A stretch of 26,244 nucleotides of DNA, taken from IMG/VR virus record IMGVR_UViG_3300037635_001002, positions 1 to 26,244 of that record; one strand, given 5' to 3'. The notes under the pieces are model-generated. The model saw nothing but the letters and a program-made list of their open reading frames with translations, did no database searches and was not told where the DNA came from. Below are positions 1 through 19,001 of this stretch, piece after piece. Each line of letters starts with the position of its first letter. Position 1 is the first letter of the stretch. Made by a program: the position numbers and the translations under genes. The DNA is from a virus.

Positions 1-716
1 GCAGTAGCATAGTCTGTTGAATCAAATGCTTTAACTTGTGCTAGGTTAGTAACCTCACTGTCCATCAGCGCACCAGCAGCAGTTACGTTAGTACCATCTG
101 TTACGTCAGCAGCAGTCTCGATACCTGCTAACTTAGTTTCTTCAGCAGTTGTGTAGGATGCAGTGGTAGCATCAAGTACAGCAGAGTGTGCTTGTACGTC
201 AGAGCCTATAGCTAAACCAAGATTAGTTCTCGATGTTGTTGCACTTGCTACGTCATTTAAGTTATTAGCAGCTTGTAGTCCACCACTACCTGTTGTAATG
301 GTTTGCCATGCAGACCCTGTGTAGGTCATCATGACTTCAGTAGTAGTATTAAAATATAACGCACCAGTAGTTAACGCACCACCATCATTATCTACTGTAG
401 GATCAGATGACTTAGCACCTAAGTACCTGTCATCAAAATCATCATAAGAAGCTGCAGCAGCAGTAGCAGAACTAGCAGCAGCCGTTGCAGAAGATGCAGA
501 CGCTGTAGCAGAACTTGCAGATGCTGTAGCAGATGTTGCAGAATTACTTGCAGATGTTGAAGATGCTGTTGCTGAGTTATCAGCAGAAGTGGCTGAAGAG
601 GCAGCAGCATTAGCAGATGTAGTGGCTTCAGCAGCTTTAGCCGTGGCTACACTAGCTTGATTAGCTGCGTCTGTTGTTGCATCTCCTGACCCTCCAGCCC
701 CTCTATATATAGCCAT
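1..716 (-). CDS. Tail fibre protein, N-terminal part (cut by left edge)
   Basis: The frame opens at ATG 716-714 and stays open to the window edge, giving 238 codons with the C-terminus missing. The start is MAIYRGAGGSGDA. Residues 20-90 are almost only Ala, Ser and Thr in short repeats such as SSATASA, as in trimeric fibre shafts. A module around residues 92-138 (DDFDDRYLGAKSSDPTVDND, then ALYFNTT and YTGSAW) is common in marine phage fibres. It should be a receptor-binding or fibre-shaft protein of the virion. The gene follows pqqA by 9 nt and its likely ribosome site (AAGTAAGG) overlaps the pqqA stop. The start was chosen because the Ala/Ser-rich frame begins there. No exact fibre class can be named without the missing tip domain. 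Confidence 0.8.
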   Translation of the reverse strand, partial: MAIYRGAGGSGDATTDAANQASVATAKAAEATTSANAAASSATSADNSATASSTSASNSATSATASASSATASASSATAAASSATAAAASYDDFDDRYLGAKSSDPTVDNDGGALTTGALYFNTTTEVMMTYTGSAWQTITTGSGGLQAANNLNDVASATTSRTNLGLAIGSDVQAHSAVLDATTASYTTAEETKLAGIETAADVTDGTNVTAAGALMDSEVTNLAQVKAFDSTDYAT

Positions 717-725
717 TATACGCCC

Positions 726-797
726 TTACTTAGTTGCAATGTACATCGTGACTTCAAAACCAAATCTTATCTCAGTGTATTCAGGTTTAGTCCACAT
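726..797 (-). CDS. pqqA: PqqA-like PQQ precursor peptide
   Basis: This 23-codon gene begins [13 protein letters not shown] and continues [10 protein letters not shown]. Known PqqA peptides (for example from Klebsiella) are also about 23 residues, begin MWxKP and carry the crosslinked pair Glu15 and Tyr19 in a GxEVTxY context. Here Glu is residue 15 and Tyr is residue 19. In the known pathway PqqD presents PqqA to the radical-SAM enzyme PqqE, which joins this Glu and Tyr to make pyrroloquinoline quinone, cofactor of periplasmic dehydrogenases. A Shine-Dalgarno AAAGGA lies 6 nt before the ATG. The start overlaps the end of the 31-residue ORF by 11 nt, and the tail fibre follows 9 nt later. No pqqB-E genes are visible, so any function depends on host enzymes. 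The motif and length match are strong; activity is inferred. Confidence 0.85.
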
Positions 798-882
798 AAT
801 GTTTCCTTTGTCGTAGTTTAAGTAGTTGTTGTTTCTTGTGATTGTCTAGCTCACGCTTACGGCAGAAGTCTTGCCAAGTCAT
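787..882 (-). CDS. Small basic peptide of 31 residues, coupled to pqqA
   Basis: The frame begins [12 protein letters not shown] and ends RQRKHYVD, with many Lys, Arg and Gln residues and no membrane segment. It has one of the strongest ribosome sites in the window (AGGAGGG at 893-887, 4 nt before the ATG). Its stop lies inside the start of pqqA (11-nt overlap), the usual layout for translational coupling. I do not recognise the family. It may be a real peptide, or mainly a device that delivers ribosomes to pqqA. Confidence 0.6.
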
Positions 883-953: not shown

Positions 954-986
954 ATAAAACTCCCTAGACCTTGTGAGTCTAGGGAG
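954..986 (-). terminator. Rho-independent terminator after the major capsid gene
   Basis: A perfect 10-bp stem (CTCCCTAGAC at 960-969 with GTCTAGGGAG at 977-986) encloses a 7-nt loop. On the minus strand it is followed by TTTTAT. It starts 13 nt after the capsid stop codon, the normal place for a terminator limiting read-through from this highly expressed gene. The pqqA and fibre genes beyond it need read-through or their own promoter, and I saw no convincing promoter. Confidence 0.85.
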
Positions 987-998
987 ATACCTACTTAA

Positions 999-1931
999 TT
1001 AAGCAGGAACAGCTAGAGCAACAGCAGAACTGTCACGTAACTCAGCTACACCGTAAAGCATATCTGTCGTGAACAATGTTGCAAGCCATTCTTGCTTGTA
1101 CTGGGTCTGTGAACGTACACCCATCTGCTCAGCAAGACAGAAAGCATCTTTATGAGCCATGAGACAAATACGGTCAGCACCAGAGTTACCAGCACCTGAG
1201 TCAGCGTTGGTTGTCACAAAGGCTTTAACACCATAGAGATCACCAATTTGACCATTACGGATCGTGTTGTTTGATCCCTGCTCACCAACAAAAGACTCAG
1301 AACTGAATCTGTCAATACCCATCAAGGTATTTCTTGTTGTAGGTGGAACGATCAATAAACGATCTGTCATTGGTACGTCAGCATCATCAAGTCTTTGGAT
1401 CGAACGTCTTACACCAGCATCAGCCAATGCAGCAGCATTAGAAGAAGTAGAGTTGTAGACGGTAGTTCCGTTAGAACCGATAAATGCGTTAGTCGTAGTA
1501 GCTGCTGTAGAGTACGCAGTACCTGAACCAGCAGTACGACCTAGCTGAATCAAGTCAGTATCAACTTGTTTAGCAATAGCAAAACCAGCGTCATCAGTGT
1601 AGAACTTTCGTAGAGAGCTAAGAGCTTGTGTCTCAACAATGTCCTCAATGAAACGTGAGTATTCGTAGTGCTTGTTGATGTTGACCAGAATCTCGTTCTC
1701 AGTTGCAGCAATAAGCGTTACCTGAGTTGATGCTGCCTTTGCAGACGCTGCACCACGAGTTGGTTTAGGAATGTGAAGCACATCACCTTTTTTGCCTTTA
1801 AAAGACATCTTGGAGAACAAGTTAGCAGCGACAAGATTAGCCTTGTAAGCTGCAACAATCTCATCACTCCAAATCTCAGGGATGAACTTCGCTGCGGTAG
1901 TGGTTGTTACATTATTAGTACCTAGTGCCAT
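999..1931 (-). CDS. Major capsid protein
   Basis: This 310-residue protein should build the icosahedral shell. It begins MALGTNNVTTTTAAKFIPEI, the N-terminal pattern (…IPEIW…) seen in HK97-fold coat proteins of podovirus-like marine phages and cyanophages. Residues about 30-65 hold the LFSKMSFKGKKGDVLHIPKP stretch and about 90-130 the HYEYSRFIEDIV helix region expected of such coats. The ATG is preceded by AAAAGGAAATAAGA. The scaffold gene is directly upstream and a strong hairpin terminator directly downstream, the usual head-gene order. The length fits coat proteins of about 300-350 residues. Assignment rests on motif memory and context; the exact coat subfamily is not certain. Confidence 0.88.
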   Translation of the reverse strand: MALGTNNVTTTTAAKFIPEIWSDEIVAAYKANLVAANLFSKMSFKGKKGDVLHIPKPTRGAASAKAASTQVTLIAATENEILVNINKHYEYSRFIEDIVETQALSSLRKFYTDDAGFAIAKQVDTDLIQLGRTAGSGTAYSTAATTTNAFIGSNGTTVYNSTSSNAAALADAGVRRSIQRLDDADVPMTDRLLIVPPTTRNTLMGIDRFSSESFVGEQGSNNTIRNGQIGDLYGVKAFVTTNADSGAGNSGADRICLMAHKDAFCLAEQMGVRSQTQYKQEWLATLFTTDMLYGVAELRDSSAVALAVPA

Positions 1932-2833: not shown

Positions 2834-3067
2834 TCAGCCTCTGCGTTTTTCAGCGACTCTTGTTGCTTCTTCATGTTTTCTAGCCCAAGCATCGGCTGCT
2901 GTAGGAAAATCACCAGTGATTCCTTCAAGCGCGATACGAGGTGCTGAGATAATACGAAGTGCCATTAGTTGACAAACAGGACACTCAACAGCGTTTACCT
3001 TGTCATCAACATAACTCTCTGTGGTGTGATTTTCAGCACACCTAAATTCAAACATTCTCTTACTCAT
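2834..3067 (-). CDS. Small zinc-ribbon protein, FmdB-like
   Basis: This 77-residue protein begins MSKRMFEFRCAENHTTE and has Cys10, His14 and the pair CPVC at residues 29-32. This resembles the single zinc ribbon of FmdB-type regulatory proteins, which are often found in phage head-gene clusters. The rest is a basic tail (RKHEEATRVAEKRRG) that could bind nucleic acid. It overlaps the previous gene by 8 nt and lies upstream of the scaffold gene in the same operon. The role in phages of this type is not established; zinc binding is inferred from the four ligands. Confidence 0.65.
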   Translation of the reverse strand: MSKRMFEFRCAENHTTESYVDDKVNAVECPVCQLMALRIISAPRIALEGITGDFPTAADAWARKHEEATRVAEKRRG

Positions 3068-3293
3068 TGTTCAGTTGCTCCCACGCTTCCTCAGAAAGTT
3101 TCTTGAGAGTTCTGATCCAATGCAAAACATCTAACTGACCTTTACGAAAGTGCAACTCCTCTAGGCTTTGTGTAGCCATCAAGTTGTTTCTCTCTTCAAT
3201 CATCGTTTCAACATCTGTCAACAAATCTGTGTAGCCTTTTGTTCCCATCATGTTGAAGCGTTCTTCGTAATACTCTTGGAGTTCTTTATCCAA
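3060..3293 (-). CDS. Small helical protein of the head-gene operon, function unknown
   Basis: This 77-residue protein (MDKELQEYYEERFNMMG…) is charged and probably all helix, with no membrane segment. It is the first gene after the late promoter at 3347-3375. The start is TTG at 3293-3291 with AGGAG about 8 nt upstream. That ribosome site can fold into a small hairpin (AGGA, loop GAAC, TCCT) just before the start, which might limit translation. The position between portal and scaffold, as far as the inserted cassette allows, suggests a head or connector accessory. I do not recognise the family. Confidence 0.65.
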   Translation of the reverse strand: MDKELQEYYEERFNMMGTKGYTDLLTDVETMIEERNNLMATQSLEELHFRKGQLDVLHWIRTLKKLSEEAWEQLNNE

Positions 3294-3312
3294 TAGGAGT
3301 TCTCCTGTAAAT

Positions 3313-3337
3313 GTAAATAAGAATCATTCCTATTTAC
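3313..3337. promoter_or_regulatory. Fur-box-like 25-bp palindrome at a late promoter
   Basis: The site has arms GTAAATA and TATTTAC around the core GAATCATTC, with 11 of 12 base pairs symmetric. It is nearly the same as two palindromes at 8882-8906 and 8911-8935. The pattern AAT-x-AGAAT-x-ATTC resembles known bacterial Fur boxes. It begins a few nt after the predicted start of transcription of the late promoter, so a bound protein would block the polymerase. Which protein binds is inferred. Confidence 0.6.
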
Positions 3338-3346
3338 TTGAGGCTT

Positions 3347-3375
3347 ATCCTACCACAAATAGAACGGTTTGTCTT
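3347..3375 (-). promoter_or_regulatory. Late promoter for the head-gene operon
   Basis: On the minus strand AAGACA (3375-3370) and TAGGAT (3352-3347) are 17 nt apart, and TGG directly before the -10 makes it an extended -10 type. The predicted transcript starts near 3340, just before the Fur-like palindrome. The same TGSTAGGATA string occurs upstream of the small terminase. Confidence 0.5.
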
Positions 3376-3444
3376 AATTATTTGCTTATATAACTTTTTA
3401 TTATAAAAAATCGTATTTATATAACAAAATAATTGTACAAAGTG

Positions 3445-3473
3445 TTTACTTTTGTGAAATTAATTTTTAAAAT
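3445..3473 (+). promoter_or_regulatory. Sigma70-type promoter of the inserted plus-strand cassette
   Basis: TTTACT at 3445-3450 and TAAAAT at 3468-3473 are separated by exactly 17 nt in a very AT-rich stretch. Transcription would begin near 3480, about 30 nt before the ATG of the first cassette gene. Confidence 0.6.
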
Positions 3474-3509
3474 AGATTCAACACTTAAAAAACAACAAGG
3501 AGATTCAAA

Positions 3510-3809
3510 ATGAAATTAATTTCAACACGACATTTCGGAAACAACTCAATGCGTTTTGCTTTGGTAGGAAAGAGAGGAAGGAAGTGGACTAAAGTAGTTG
3601 TCGTTACCTCTCCCATCAGAGTCGTAAAAGTAGATAACAAGATTGCCGACAAGTTTGAAGAAGTTGTTAAGGGCGATCCTAGACTCGGAACAAAACCTAA
3701 AGCTGGTAACCCAGTCACTAGAATGAAGCAAGACATCAGAGAGCTGGCAGCTTGGACTTACAAAGAAGGATTGCCAAAAACATTAACCAACTTCTTGAAA
3801 GGGGAGTAA
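3510..3809 (+). CDS. Basic protein of 99 residues, function unknown
   Basis: The protein begins MKLISTRHFGNNSMRF and is rich in Lys, Arg and Val, with no Cys or membrane segment. A beta-rich first half (WTKVVVVTSPIRVVKV) precedes a helical C-terminus. The ATG follows AAGGAGATTCAAA and lies downstream of a good sigma70-type promoter at 3445-3473. It is the first gene of a plus-strand cassette set between minus-strand head genes, so it is probably expressed separately from them. The basic charge would suit nucleic-acid binding, but I recognise no family. Confidence 0.65.
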   Translation: MKLISTRHFGNNSMRFALVGKRGRKWTKVVVVTSPIRVVKVDNKIADKFEEVVKGDPRLGTKPKAGNPVTRMKQDIRELAAWTYKEGLPKTLTNFLKGE

Positions 3810-3813
3810 TAAA

Positions 3814-4248
3814 ATGAAAGTATCAAAAGAAGCAATGGCGTGGTACAAAAAAGCCGATCAAGTATGGACAAGCGTTGGTGAAACCTCGCACGATAACGTA
3901 TCGTGGAACGAAGATCGTATTTGTTTTAAGACAGCTTCAAGCGCAGCAAAAGCAATGTGGAAATCTGAATTTCCTAAACAAAGATTTCCTTATAAAATTA
4001 TTAAGGTAAAAGGCAAAAGATATAACTGGGTTCGTGGAGGTGTGTTATCAATCAACACTCAAAGAAACTGGGCAGCTTTTGTTCATGACTTTGGTCATTG
4101 GATGGGAATAAAACATCAACGTAGAAACAAAAACTGGAAAACGCATCACTGTGCGGAACACGCAATCATGGAGTGGAAACTATCCAGAATGATTGTTGAT
4201 AAAGGTTACATTGACAAGTCAAAAGAACAATTAAGAAAAGAGGCGTAA
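3814..4248 (+). CDS. Protein with metzincin-like HDxxHxxGxxH motif
   Basis: This 144-residue protein carries HDFGHWMGIKH at residues 91-101. This matches the metzincin zinc-peptidase signature HExxHxxGxxH at every fixed position except Asp in place of the catalytic Glu. More possible ligands follow (His111, His112, Cys113, Glu115, His116). The three histidines His91, His95 and His101 could bind zinc; with Asp92 the protease activity may be lowered, altered or absent. There is no signal peptide, so it would act in the cytoplasm. The ATG follows GGGGAG. It is the middle gene of a plus-strand cassette with its own promoter and terminator. The family is not one I can name, and the protease assignment is inference from one motif. 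Confidence 0.65.
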   Translation: MKVSKEAMAWYKKADQVWTSVGETSHDNVSWNEDRICFKTASSAAKAMWKSEFPKQRFPYKIIKVKGKRYNWVRGGVLSINTQRNWAAFVHDFGHWMGIKHQRRNKNWKTHHCAEHAIMEWKLSRMIVDKGYIDKSKEQLRKEA

Positions 4249-4250
4249 GA

Positions 4251-4331
4251 GTGAGAATATTATTAGAAGCAGTTTTATTCAGCTACGGATCTTTTTACGT
4301 CATCTGGCATCTGCTTGCTTTTATGTTTTAA
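4251..4331 (+). CDS. Hydrophobic membrane peptide of 26 residues
   Basis: The frame starts at GTG 4251, two nt after the stop of the metzincin-motif gene, and reads MRILLEAVLFSYGSFYVIWH followed by LLAFMF. Almost the whole peptide could form one membrane helix. A site AAGAGGCG lies about 5 nt upstream. It ends 3 nt before the terminator hairpin. Such peptides can be holin-like or membrane-active, but nothing specific can be assigned. Confidence 0.5.
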   Translation: MRILLEAVLFSYGSFYVIWHLLAFMF

Positions 4332-17111: not shown

Positions 17112-19001
17112 ATGGATTTTTACCAAGAGTATATTGCTAAGAGTAGGTATTGCAGATTCGTAGAAGCAGAAGGACGTAGAGAAGATTGGTTTGAGACAGT
17201 CGATAGATACATGGACTTCATGAAGAACCATCTGGAGACTAAGCATAACCATGTCATGCCTATGGAGACAGACTCGGAGATGCGTGAGGCTATCAAGAAC
17301 TTAGAGGTTGTGCCTTCTATGAGAGCTATCATGGCTGCAGGTAAGGCACTCGACAGAGACAACACAGCAGGTTACAACTGTAGCTACATGCCTGTCGATG
17401 ATCCCAAAGCATTTGATGAGGCTATGTACATCTTACTTTGTGGTACTGGTGTAGGGTTTAGTGTTGAGCATAAGTATGTTGACAAACTACCTGAGATACC
17501 TGACCAGTTGTTCGACTCCGAAACAACTATTGTTGTACCTGATAGTAAAGAAGGTTGGGCTAAGTCACTACGTCAGGTCATTGCTTTGTTGTACTCTGGT
17601 GAGATACCTCAGTGGGATACAAGCAAGGTTAGACCAGCAGGTGCTAGACTCAAGACGTTTGGTGGTAGGGCTAGTGGACCAGAACCTTTACATGAGTTGT
17701 TTAAGTTTGTTATCGCTAGGTTTCAAGGTGCAGCAGGTCGTAAGCTAAATACGCTAGAGTGTCATGACATCATGTGTAAGGTTGCTGAGGTTGTTGTAGT
17801 AGGTGGCGTTAGACGTTCAGCTATGATCTCACTGTCTGACTTAGAGGATGACAAGATGCGTCATGCTAAGGTCGGTCAGTGGTGGGAGGCTAACCCTCAA
17901 CGTGCGTTGGCTAACAACTCTGCTGTGTATGCTACCAAGCCTGACGTTGGTCAGTTCCTAAACGAGTGGACCAGCTTGTATCACAGTCACAGTGGTGAGC
18001 GTGGTATCTTTAATCGTGAGGCTGCTGTCAACACAGCTAAGAAGAACGGACGCAGGGATACAGACTTTGAGTACGGTACTAACCCATGTTCAGAAATTAT
18101 CCTTAGACCCTACCAGTTCTGTAACCTGTCTGAGGTAGTAGTCAGATCTACAGACACCAAGCAAGACCTAGAACGCAAGGTCAGATTAGCTACTATCTTA
18201 GGAACGTATCAGTCTACGATGACTCACTTCCCTTATCTCAGAAAGGTGTGGCAGAAGAACACAGAGGCTGAGAGGTTACTTGGTGTGTCACTGACTGGTA
18301 TCCTAGACAACAAACTTATGGGAGAAACCAGTGACAAAACTAAGGCAATGCTTGAGAGACTCAGAGACGTATCGGTTGATACAAACTTACAGTTATCCAC
18401 TGAGCTTAATATCCCTGTATCTGCTGCCATCACTTGTATTAAGCCTTCTGGCACTGTTAGTCAGCTTGTTGACTCTGCCTCTGGTATTCATACGAGACAC
18501 AGTAAGTATTATGTGCGCAGGGTACGAGGCGATAAGAAAGATCCTCTATCCACGTTCATGACTGAGCAGGGTATACCTTCTGAGGATTGTGTGTTACGAC
18601 CAGAGTCTACTACTGTCTTTAGTTTCCCTAAGAAGTCACCAGATGGTGCGCTACTTCGTGAGGACATCACTGCTATCGAACACTTAGACTTATGGTTGAT
18701 GTATCAGAAGCATTGGTGTGAGCATAAGCCGTCAGTCACTATCTCTGTCGAGGAGCATGAGTGGGTAGAAGTAGGCTCATGGATCTGGAAGAACTTCGAT
18801 GATGTCAGTGGTGTTAGCTTCTTGCCCTACGATGGTGGGACATATAAGCAAGCTCCCTATGAAGAGTGTACTGAGGAGGAGTATAAAGAACTTCTTCATA
18901 AGATGCCAAAGAGCATTGAGTGGAATAGCCTCATAGAGATTGATGACAATGTGGAAGGAGCGCAGACTCTGGCTTGTACAGCAGGTGCTTGTGAGATCTA
19001 A
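17112..19001 (+). CDS. nrdJ: Class II (B12-dependent) ribonucleotide reductase
   Basis: The 629-residue enzyme makes deoxynucleotides from ribonucleotides using adenosylcobalamin, so it works with or without oxygen. Key residues are visible: Cys90 (GYNCSY), the thiyl-radical Cys326 with Glu328 in NPCSE, Cys337 (QFCNLSE), and the C-terminal redox pair Cys622/Cys627 (CTAGAC), spaced as in the monomeric Lactobacillus type. GGVRRSAMISL (231-241) is also typical. It is the last gene of the plus-strand operon, overlapping the convergent holin-like gene by 4 nt. The host must supply cobalamin. No intein or break is seen. Confidence 0.92.
   Translation: MDFYQEYIAKSRYCRFVEAEGRREDWFETVDRYMDFMKNHLETKHNHVMPMETDSEMREAIKNLEVVPSMRAIMAAGKALDRDNTAGYNCSYMPVDDPKAFDEAMYILLCGTGVGFSVEHKYVDKLPEIPDQLFDSETTIVVPDSKEGWAKSLRQVIALLYSGEIPQWDTSKVRPAGARLKTFGGRASGPEPLHELFKFVIARFQGAAGRKLNTLECHDIMCKVAEVVVVGGVRRSAMISLSDLEDDKMRHAKVGQWWEANPQRALANNSAVYATKPDVGQFLNEWTSLYHSHSGERGIFNREAAVNTAKKNGRRDTDFEYGTNPCSEIILRPYQFCNLSEVVVRSTDTKQDLERKVRLATILGTYQSTMTHFPYLRKVWQKNTEAERLLGVSLTGILDNKLMGETSDKTKAMLERLRDVSVDTNLQLSTELNIPVSAAITCIKPSGTVSQLVDSASGIHTRHSKYYVRRVRGDKKDPLSTFMTEQGIPSEDCVLRPESTTVFSFPKKSPDGALLREDITAIEHLDLWLMYQKHWCEHKPSVTISVEEHEWVEVGSWIWKNFDDVSGVSFLPYDGGTYKQAPYEECTEEEYKELLHKMPKSIEWNSLIEIDDNVEGAQTLACTAGACEI

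Follow-up and report, generated by a model that had tools for sequence, protein, structure and literature searches.

A stand-alone pqqA gene in the virion cluster of an IMG/VR phage and its occurrence in phages linked to methylotrophs

The cofactor PQQ is built from a glutamate and a tyrosine of the peptide PqqA, which is bound by PqqD and crosslinked by PqqE. One PqqA is consumed for every PQQ made; the enzymes turn over and are reusable. A phage-borne pqqA would resemble psbA and psbD of cyanophages, which likewise provide a component that a host energy pathway uses up quickly; the difference is that psbA codes for a protein subunit lost to photodamage, while PqqA is a peptide from which a cofactor is made. 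The closest described virus is the Lake Baikal population VP_266, a predicted methylotroph phage which encodes PqqA according to the available sections of its report (PMC7678222). In the same sections VP_266 is described as T4-like and as also encoding a methanol dehydrogenase, and a boost of methanol oxidation is proposed (PMC7678222). Elsewhere, pqqA, pqqE and pqqD are listed among the viral phosphorus genes of a reservoir sediment, as far as the available part of that paper goes (PMC13188868). These two reports of viral PqqA were found among the papers listed by a full-text literature search, preprints and most subscription journals being outside its scope. Another paper names PqqA a single time, as a peptide family of bacteria whose expression accompanies that of defence systems (PMC11118758), and a PQQ-dependent oxidoreductase, not PqqA, is found among vinegar virus genes (PMC9602057). 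The initial annotation of the DNA studied here knew of no established role for pqqA in phages; this has to be withdrawn, as viral PqqA was already published for VP_266. Phage pqqA is of a kind already reported, one that proves wider than had been noticed, and is not peculiar to the phage described below.

The window, i.e. the whole stretch of DNA that was analysed, comprises 26,244 nucleotides of the IMG/VR record IMGVR_UViG_3300037635_001002. Like VP_266, it encodes a PqqA. The gene lies at 726..797 on the minus strand and, translated from 797 to 726, gives 23 residues and a stop, with an MWxKP start and with Glu15 and Tyr19, the glutamate and tyrosine with three residues between them that form the PQQ crosslink pair. 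The identity had been proposed from these same features, and it was upheld by profile searches in which both scores were far over the curated cut-offs (PF08042, E = 7.9e-12, 45.3 bits, cut-off 21.1; NCBIfam TIGR02107, E = 5.7e-13, 48.3 bits, cut-off 20). The position 726-797, originally given without a strand, is correct for the minus strand; translation of the plus strand over these bases revealed no PqqA-like peptide. A ribosome-binding-like region, CAAAGGAAACATT, is found 5′ of the ATG at 798..810 (minus strand), and the ribosome-binding-like AAAGGAAAC is at ribosome-binding distance 5′ of the same codon. Together with its place in relatives and its pattern of substitution (see below), these features confirm, at the level of sequence, that the ORF is a real phage pqqA. 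If phages do carry PqqA, few of their metabolic genes would be smaller than this one of 72 bases, which annotation had overlooked.

Capsid, portal and terminase genes were identified in the window with PHROGs, and by its gene set the phage looks like a podovirus. The major capsid protein gene (999..1931, minus strand; phrog_267, E = 6.1e-46) is located upstream of pqqA. A terminator-like hairpin occurs 3′ of the capsid gene and upstream of pqqA (960..986, minus strand, fold z -4.2), where one such hairpin was found near pqqA and 1.0 was expected in shuffles. No sigma-70-type promoter was found near pqqA, compared with 2.2 expected by chance. A 31-codon leader ORF with its own AGGAGG (787..882, minus strand) overlaps the start of pqqA by 11 nt, and translational coupling of the two is therefore possible from the layout. 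The leader recurs in relatives with a long spacer, its C-terminal end differing in some, and is absent from seven relatives with a spacer of only 64-69 nt; it has no Pfam match. Downstream, an alanine/serine-rich ORF that was labelled tail-fibre-like by eye and is cut by the window end (3..716, minus strand) begins with an ATG 9 nt after the pqqA stop. The ORF in its place in a distant relative, L031, matches tail fibre families. There is no tRNA in the window. On the plus strand, a 144-residue ORF at 3814-4248 contains histidines that by eye have a metal-site-like arrangement, and it has no match in Pfam or PHROGs.

The best 80 loci of an IMG/VR capsid search were taken as relatives, of which 71 had at least 300 nt downstream of the capsid gene and could be scored; nine were dropped for a shorter stretch. 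The 23-codon pqqA ORF is found downstream of the capsid gene in 20 of these 71. Its occurrence tracks capsid identity: 7/7 relatives at ≥90%, 11/11 at 80-90%, 2/7 at 75-80%, 0/10 at 70-75% and 0/36 below 70%. The expectation that relatives share the gene is thus upheld at capsid identities of at least 80% (18/18) and fails under 75%, where 0/46 of the scorable relatives among the best 80 contain it. The gene is therefore dispensable for this phage type. L031, a far relative found through its PqqA and with a capsid protein only 51% identical to that of the window, has a PqqA of another type, encoded between the capsid gene and the tail-fibre gene (2900-4264), in the same region as in the window. 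As intermediate relatives are without the gene and this distant one has it, these comparisons suggest repeated gain, or frequent loss, of pqqA at the capsid locus.

Where the gene is present, its codons bear the marks of purifying selection on the peptide. Pooled pairwise pN/pS was 0.13 over 14 distinct capsid-anchored pqqA sequences. Glu15 and Tyr19 are kept in all 21 capsid-anchored copies, the window included; Tyr19 is encoded by TAC in 11 and TAT in 10, and Glu15 by GAA in all 21, with no synonymous change. Among 12 distinct sequences with a long spacer, identity was 96.2% for pqqA, 90.9% for the spacer and 86.5% for the last 300 nt of the capsid gene. Within pqqA, codon positions 1 and 2 were 99.3% identical and position 3 was 90.1% identical. 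The spacer 5′ of pqqA is therefore conserved too, at 90.9% against 96.2%.

To look beyond this phage type, IMG/VR was scanned with the codon pattern MWxKP-x9-E[V/I/M]TxY, which was found on at least 120 contigs. A control pattern with one codon more between the two halves was found on none. In all 120 contigs listed for the full pattern the pqqA ORF is exactly 23 codons long, and 116 of the 120 listed ORFs are preceded by a Shine-Dalgarno-like (SD-like) motif, compared with 6.3% of random positions. With regard to another conceivable origin, a copy of a host gene left at a prophage attachment site, it is of note that between phages the codons of the ORF vary and the ribosome-binding site is kept. 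That a mere 23 codons, absent in distant relatives, might be a chance or decayed ORF without function is thus exceedingly improbable given the profile E-value of 5.7e-13, the pN/pS of 0.13, the spacing control and the SD-like motifs; with the recurrence after the capsid gene, these led us to reject this explanation.

Glu15 and Tyr19 are part of the full pattern, and another scan was therefore limited to residues 1-14. It returned at least 120 loci, and the 93 certain to stem from it were scored. Glu15, Thr17 and Tyr19 are all kept in 93 of these 93 listed loci and every ORF has 23 codons, with synonymous codons at both crosslinking residues (GAA 88 and GAG 5 at Glu15; TAT 48 and TAC 45 at Tyr19). 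The variable residues are 6-10 and 20-23. Over 109 distinct copies found by pattern, pN/pS was 0.21, a value that is biased low because the search pattern fixes residues. Moreover, 35 of the 120 viral peptides listed are letter-identical to cellular PqqA, representing three distinct peptides. These observations bear on the suggestion that the phage peptide is a decoy or sink, occupying PqqD/PqqE so that PQQ falls and host dehydrogenases are starved. Titration of PqqD by a substrate without partner genes is conceivable, and nothing direct speaks for the suggestion. A decoy would profit from losing its reactive residues; instead they are invariant and many of the peptides are identical to the cellular form, which weakens the idea. 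The hosts themselves also multiply the same gene (see below), and we consider a decoy very unlikely.

The surroundings of pqqA are diverse. Grouping of 138 loci by single linkage, with two shared neighbouring ORFs needed, gave 36 groups. When 19 chosen neighbour proteins were compared with PHROGs, 15 matched virion, packaging or DNA metabolism families, one fell in a family classed as 'other', one in a family whose function is unknown, and for the remaining two there was no match. The families include several kinds of major head protein, terminase, DNA polymerase, exonuclease, ribonucleotide reductase and tail fibre. In the window itself, pqqA lies among the virion genes with 9 nt between its stop and the ORF that comes next, a setting that would suit a peptide recruited for a task other than PQQ, such as a regulatory or virion-associated peptide. 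However, other phages have pqqA near recombination, polymerase or packaging genes, the residues of the PQQ crosslink are kept, and carriers with stated hosts infect methylotrophs, making such a recruitment improbable. By eye, six contigs in the counts (L006, L013, L011, L077, L080 and L117) have bacterial or mixed flanks; they were kept. A neighbouring ORF in L011 has no Pfam match. In L117 (8893-10366 of a 163 kb viral contig), peroxiredoxin-like and carboxymuconolactone-decarboxylase-like genes are found just upstream of pqqA.

A collection of 50,697 phage records was searched with five PqqA queries, those of Klebsiella and Methylobacterium type included. Four of them returned the same 12 records, and the Methylobacterium query returned only the four Melnitz records. 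A closer inspection revealed that two of the 12, contigs labelled 'Acinetobacter phage MD-2021a' (CAKLQF020000010.1 and CAKLQH020000055.1), are evidently bacterial chromosome; in both, the genes pqqB, pqqC and pqqD and one for a radical SAM protein adjoin the pqqA match, and they were set aside for this reason. The ten genuine phage carriers comprise nine with Methylophilales hosts (MEP301, MEP401, MEP402, Venkman, P19250A and four Melnitz strains) and one uncultured phage. The ten are a count of carriers and no measure of prevalence among Methylophilales phages, of which taxonomy names more (MEP431-434, HIM624-A, Venkman EXVC038S and others). Carriers with a stated host are linked to methylotrophs (Methylophilales). 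Starts vary, with MWTTP in P19250A, MWTSP in MEP301 and a 24-codon form beginning MKWTKP in Melnitz-1, and the Glu-Tyr pair is kept in all three. MW202697, an uncultured phage with a 74.6% terminase match to MEP402, was not among the PqqA matches, hence absence of pqqA among relatives exists here as well.

In none of the ten genuine carriers does the annotation name PqqA: at its place five records are blank and the other five show a 'hypothetical protein', which in Melnitz-1 and MW202481 is on the strand opposite to pqqA. A PHROGs search gave no family for the window PqqA. The suspicion that so short a gene is easily missed by annotation was well founded. 'PQQ' is absent from the papers on MEP301 and MEP401/402, and the Melnitz paper has PQQ only as a medium supplement. 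For MEP401/402, latent periods of some 17-20 h are reported (PMC10580990).

The Klebsiella-type query found no Klebsiella or Pseudomonas phage among the 50,697 records, and phages of other PQQ makers thus seem to be without pqqA. This is relevant to a role outside metabolism, namely superinfection exclusion, in which PQQ made from phage PqqA would close a PQQ-binding outer membrane receptor to other phages. There is a precedent in E. coli, where PqqU with bound PQQ blocks the PqqU-targeting phage IsaakIselin, as described in the available part of the report (PMC12124388). Against it stand the apparent restriction just described, the many different phage genes beside which pqqA is found, and the lack of evidence for such receptor use by methylotroph phages; we give this role little credence.

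In cells, the codon pattern MWTKP-x6-FGFEVTMY was found at no fewer than 116 loci. By title, 83 of the 116 listed belong to a methylotroph group (Methylophaga, or Methylophilaceae with their relatives), and the remainder are mostly unnamed Proteobacteria. Cellular PqqA of Methylophilaceae, Methylophaga and TMED22-like Betaproteobacteria shares with the window peptide its length, the MWTKP start, the RFGFEVTMY core and the Glu-x3-Tyr pair. The last of these groups has the nearest operon-linked cellular form seen. Unlike cellular PqqA, the window copy is phage-encoded, is situated in a virion cluster without pqqB-E, and ends in YIATK, which was not found in the cells searched: the exact C-terminal stretch, closing with [TNK]K, had no match in the GTDB-species genome collection when sought together with its stop codon, and none in 274 genomes from the class to which TMED22 belongs. 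The ribonucleotide reductase of the window (17112-19001, plus strand), about 66% identical to enzymes of Rhizobium, Lentibacter and Roseobacter phages and adenosylcobalamin-dependent according to the annotation of its matches, has affinities that sit oddly beside the betaproteobacterial look of the PqqA.

Methylophilaceae were reported to have 3-12 pqqA copies and mostly single copies of the other pqq genes, in the part of that study available (PMC4109929); the combination is thus already published. In our searches, all 120 genomes examined from this family (that of Methylophilus methylotrophus) carry pqqA, in 1-12 copies with a median of 4, and 114 of the 120 have two or more. Six genomes from several groups, with 2-12 pqqA, each have one pqqE over the cut-off, and PQQ alcohol dehydrogenases over the cut-off were found in all six. 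Three methylotroph genomes (G002, G122 and G004) have 9-12 copies; in G002 and G004 these are spread over many contigs, each genome having one pqqE over the cut-off.

The absence of pqqB-E from the window, noted at the outset, was supported by searches with Methylovorus PqqB-E, which gave chance-level matches only (best E = 0.45), and there was no match to a PQQ alcohol dehydrogenase; the window is a 26 kb fragment and these negatives cover that stretch of genome. Adjacent pqqBCDE is usual for a PqqA, though not defining, and is lacking here. Across 220 viral loci, no match to PqqB, C, D or E was found at 1e-3. The same queries gave strong matches in 23 of the 116 cellular loci listed (stretches of at most 8 kb), so cellular pqqA, too, is often away from the operon. 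Longer sequence was available for 31 viral contigs of 20-356 kb (all 29 above 20 kb from the IMG/VR pattern scan, plus L150 and L327), which were chosen for holding pqqA and may each be a fragment. Every one has exactly one pqqA, none has a pqqE over the cut-off (three have weak sub-threshold matches) and none matches a PQQ alcohol dehydrogenase. Viral contigs with a methanol dehydrogenase as in Lake Baikal were sought and not found among the viral loci and these 31 contigs. The T4-like VP_266 with its methanol dehydrogenase, as described in the available text (PMC7678222), therefore differs from the podovirus-like window and from the long contigs; it was also reported there as one population, whereas pqqA is widespread here, isolates included.

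Two properties expected of an auxiliary metabolic gene were found. A host-type metabolic gene is present on genuine phage genomes (the window and the isolates MEP301/401/402, Venkman, P19250A and Melnitz), and it is maintained by selection (pN/pS 0.13; 18/18 relatives at ≥80%). We think it probable that phage-carried functional pqqA acts as a minimal auxiliary metabolic gene. Provision of extra substrate for host PqqD/PqqE is most likely the best explanation of its presence. In an infected methylotroph cell, pqqA would be translated, probably alongside the late virion genes. The peptide would be bound by host PqqD and crosslinked at Glu15-Tyr19 by host PqqE, and host PqqB and PqqC with a protease would complete PQQ. 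Because PqqA is consumed one per PQQ and the enzymes are reusable, the peptide alone could sustain PQQ, and then methanol dehydrogenase and energy, after host gene shutdown. For the same reason, a small genome may profit from carrying pqqA and none of the other parts, which fits the hosts' own multiplication of pqqA alone. Higher PQQ and a benefit to the phage would be expected to follow. The beneficiary was first thought to be glucose, alcohol or another dehydrogenase; as nine carriers infect Methylophilales, a PQQ-dependent methanol or alcohol dehydrogenase is the likelier one, and glucose dehydrogenase is not favoured. PQQ is a stable cofactor, hence a demand for it within one infection is not self-evident.

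Published work, in the parts available, addresses the supply of PqqA. Added PqqA was converted to PQQ by cell extract at 70-80% (work cited in PMC9851590), and overexpression of pqqABCDE gave a limited rise of PQQ in Methylovorus MP688 (PMC9851590). Disruption of one pqqA in M. extorquens AM1 lowered PQQ and did not abolish it (cited in PMC6520949).

The main interest of these findings is the spread of pqqA among methylotroph phages. On balance, we favour the view that stand-alone pqqA is a general, near-unnoticed feature of such phages, gained repeatedly by unrelated types, in which the phage brings the consumable only, the enzymes are those of the host, and PqqA supply controls methanol oxidation in infected cells. 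Cultured carrier phage-host pairs (Venkman, Melnitz, MEP301, MEP401/402 and P19250A) make this directly testable. The phage gene also bears on why methylotrophs retain up to a dozen copies of pqqA. Coastal and lake methylotrophs have an important part in the consumption of methanol and further one-carbon compounds, and if phages bring a hidden PqqA into the cells they kill, infection may sustain or even raise methanol oxidation.
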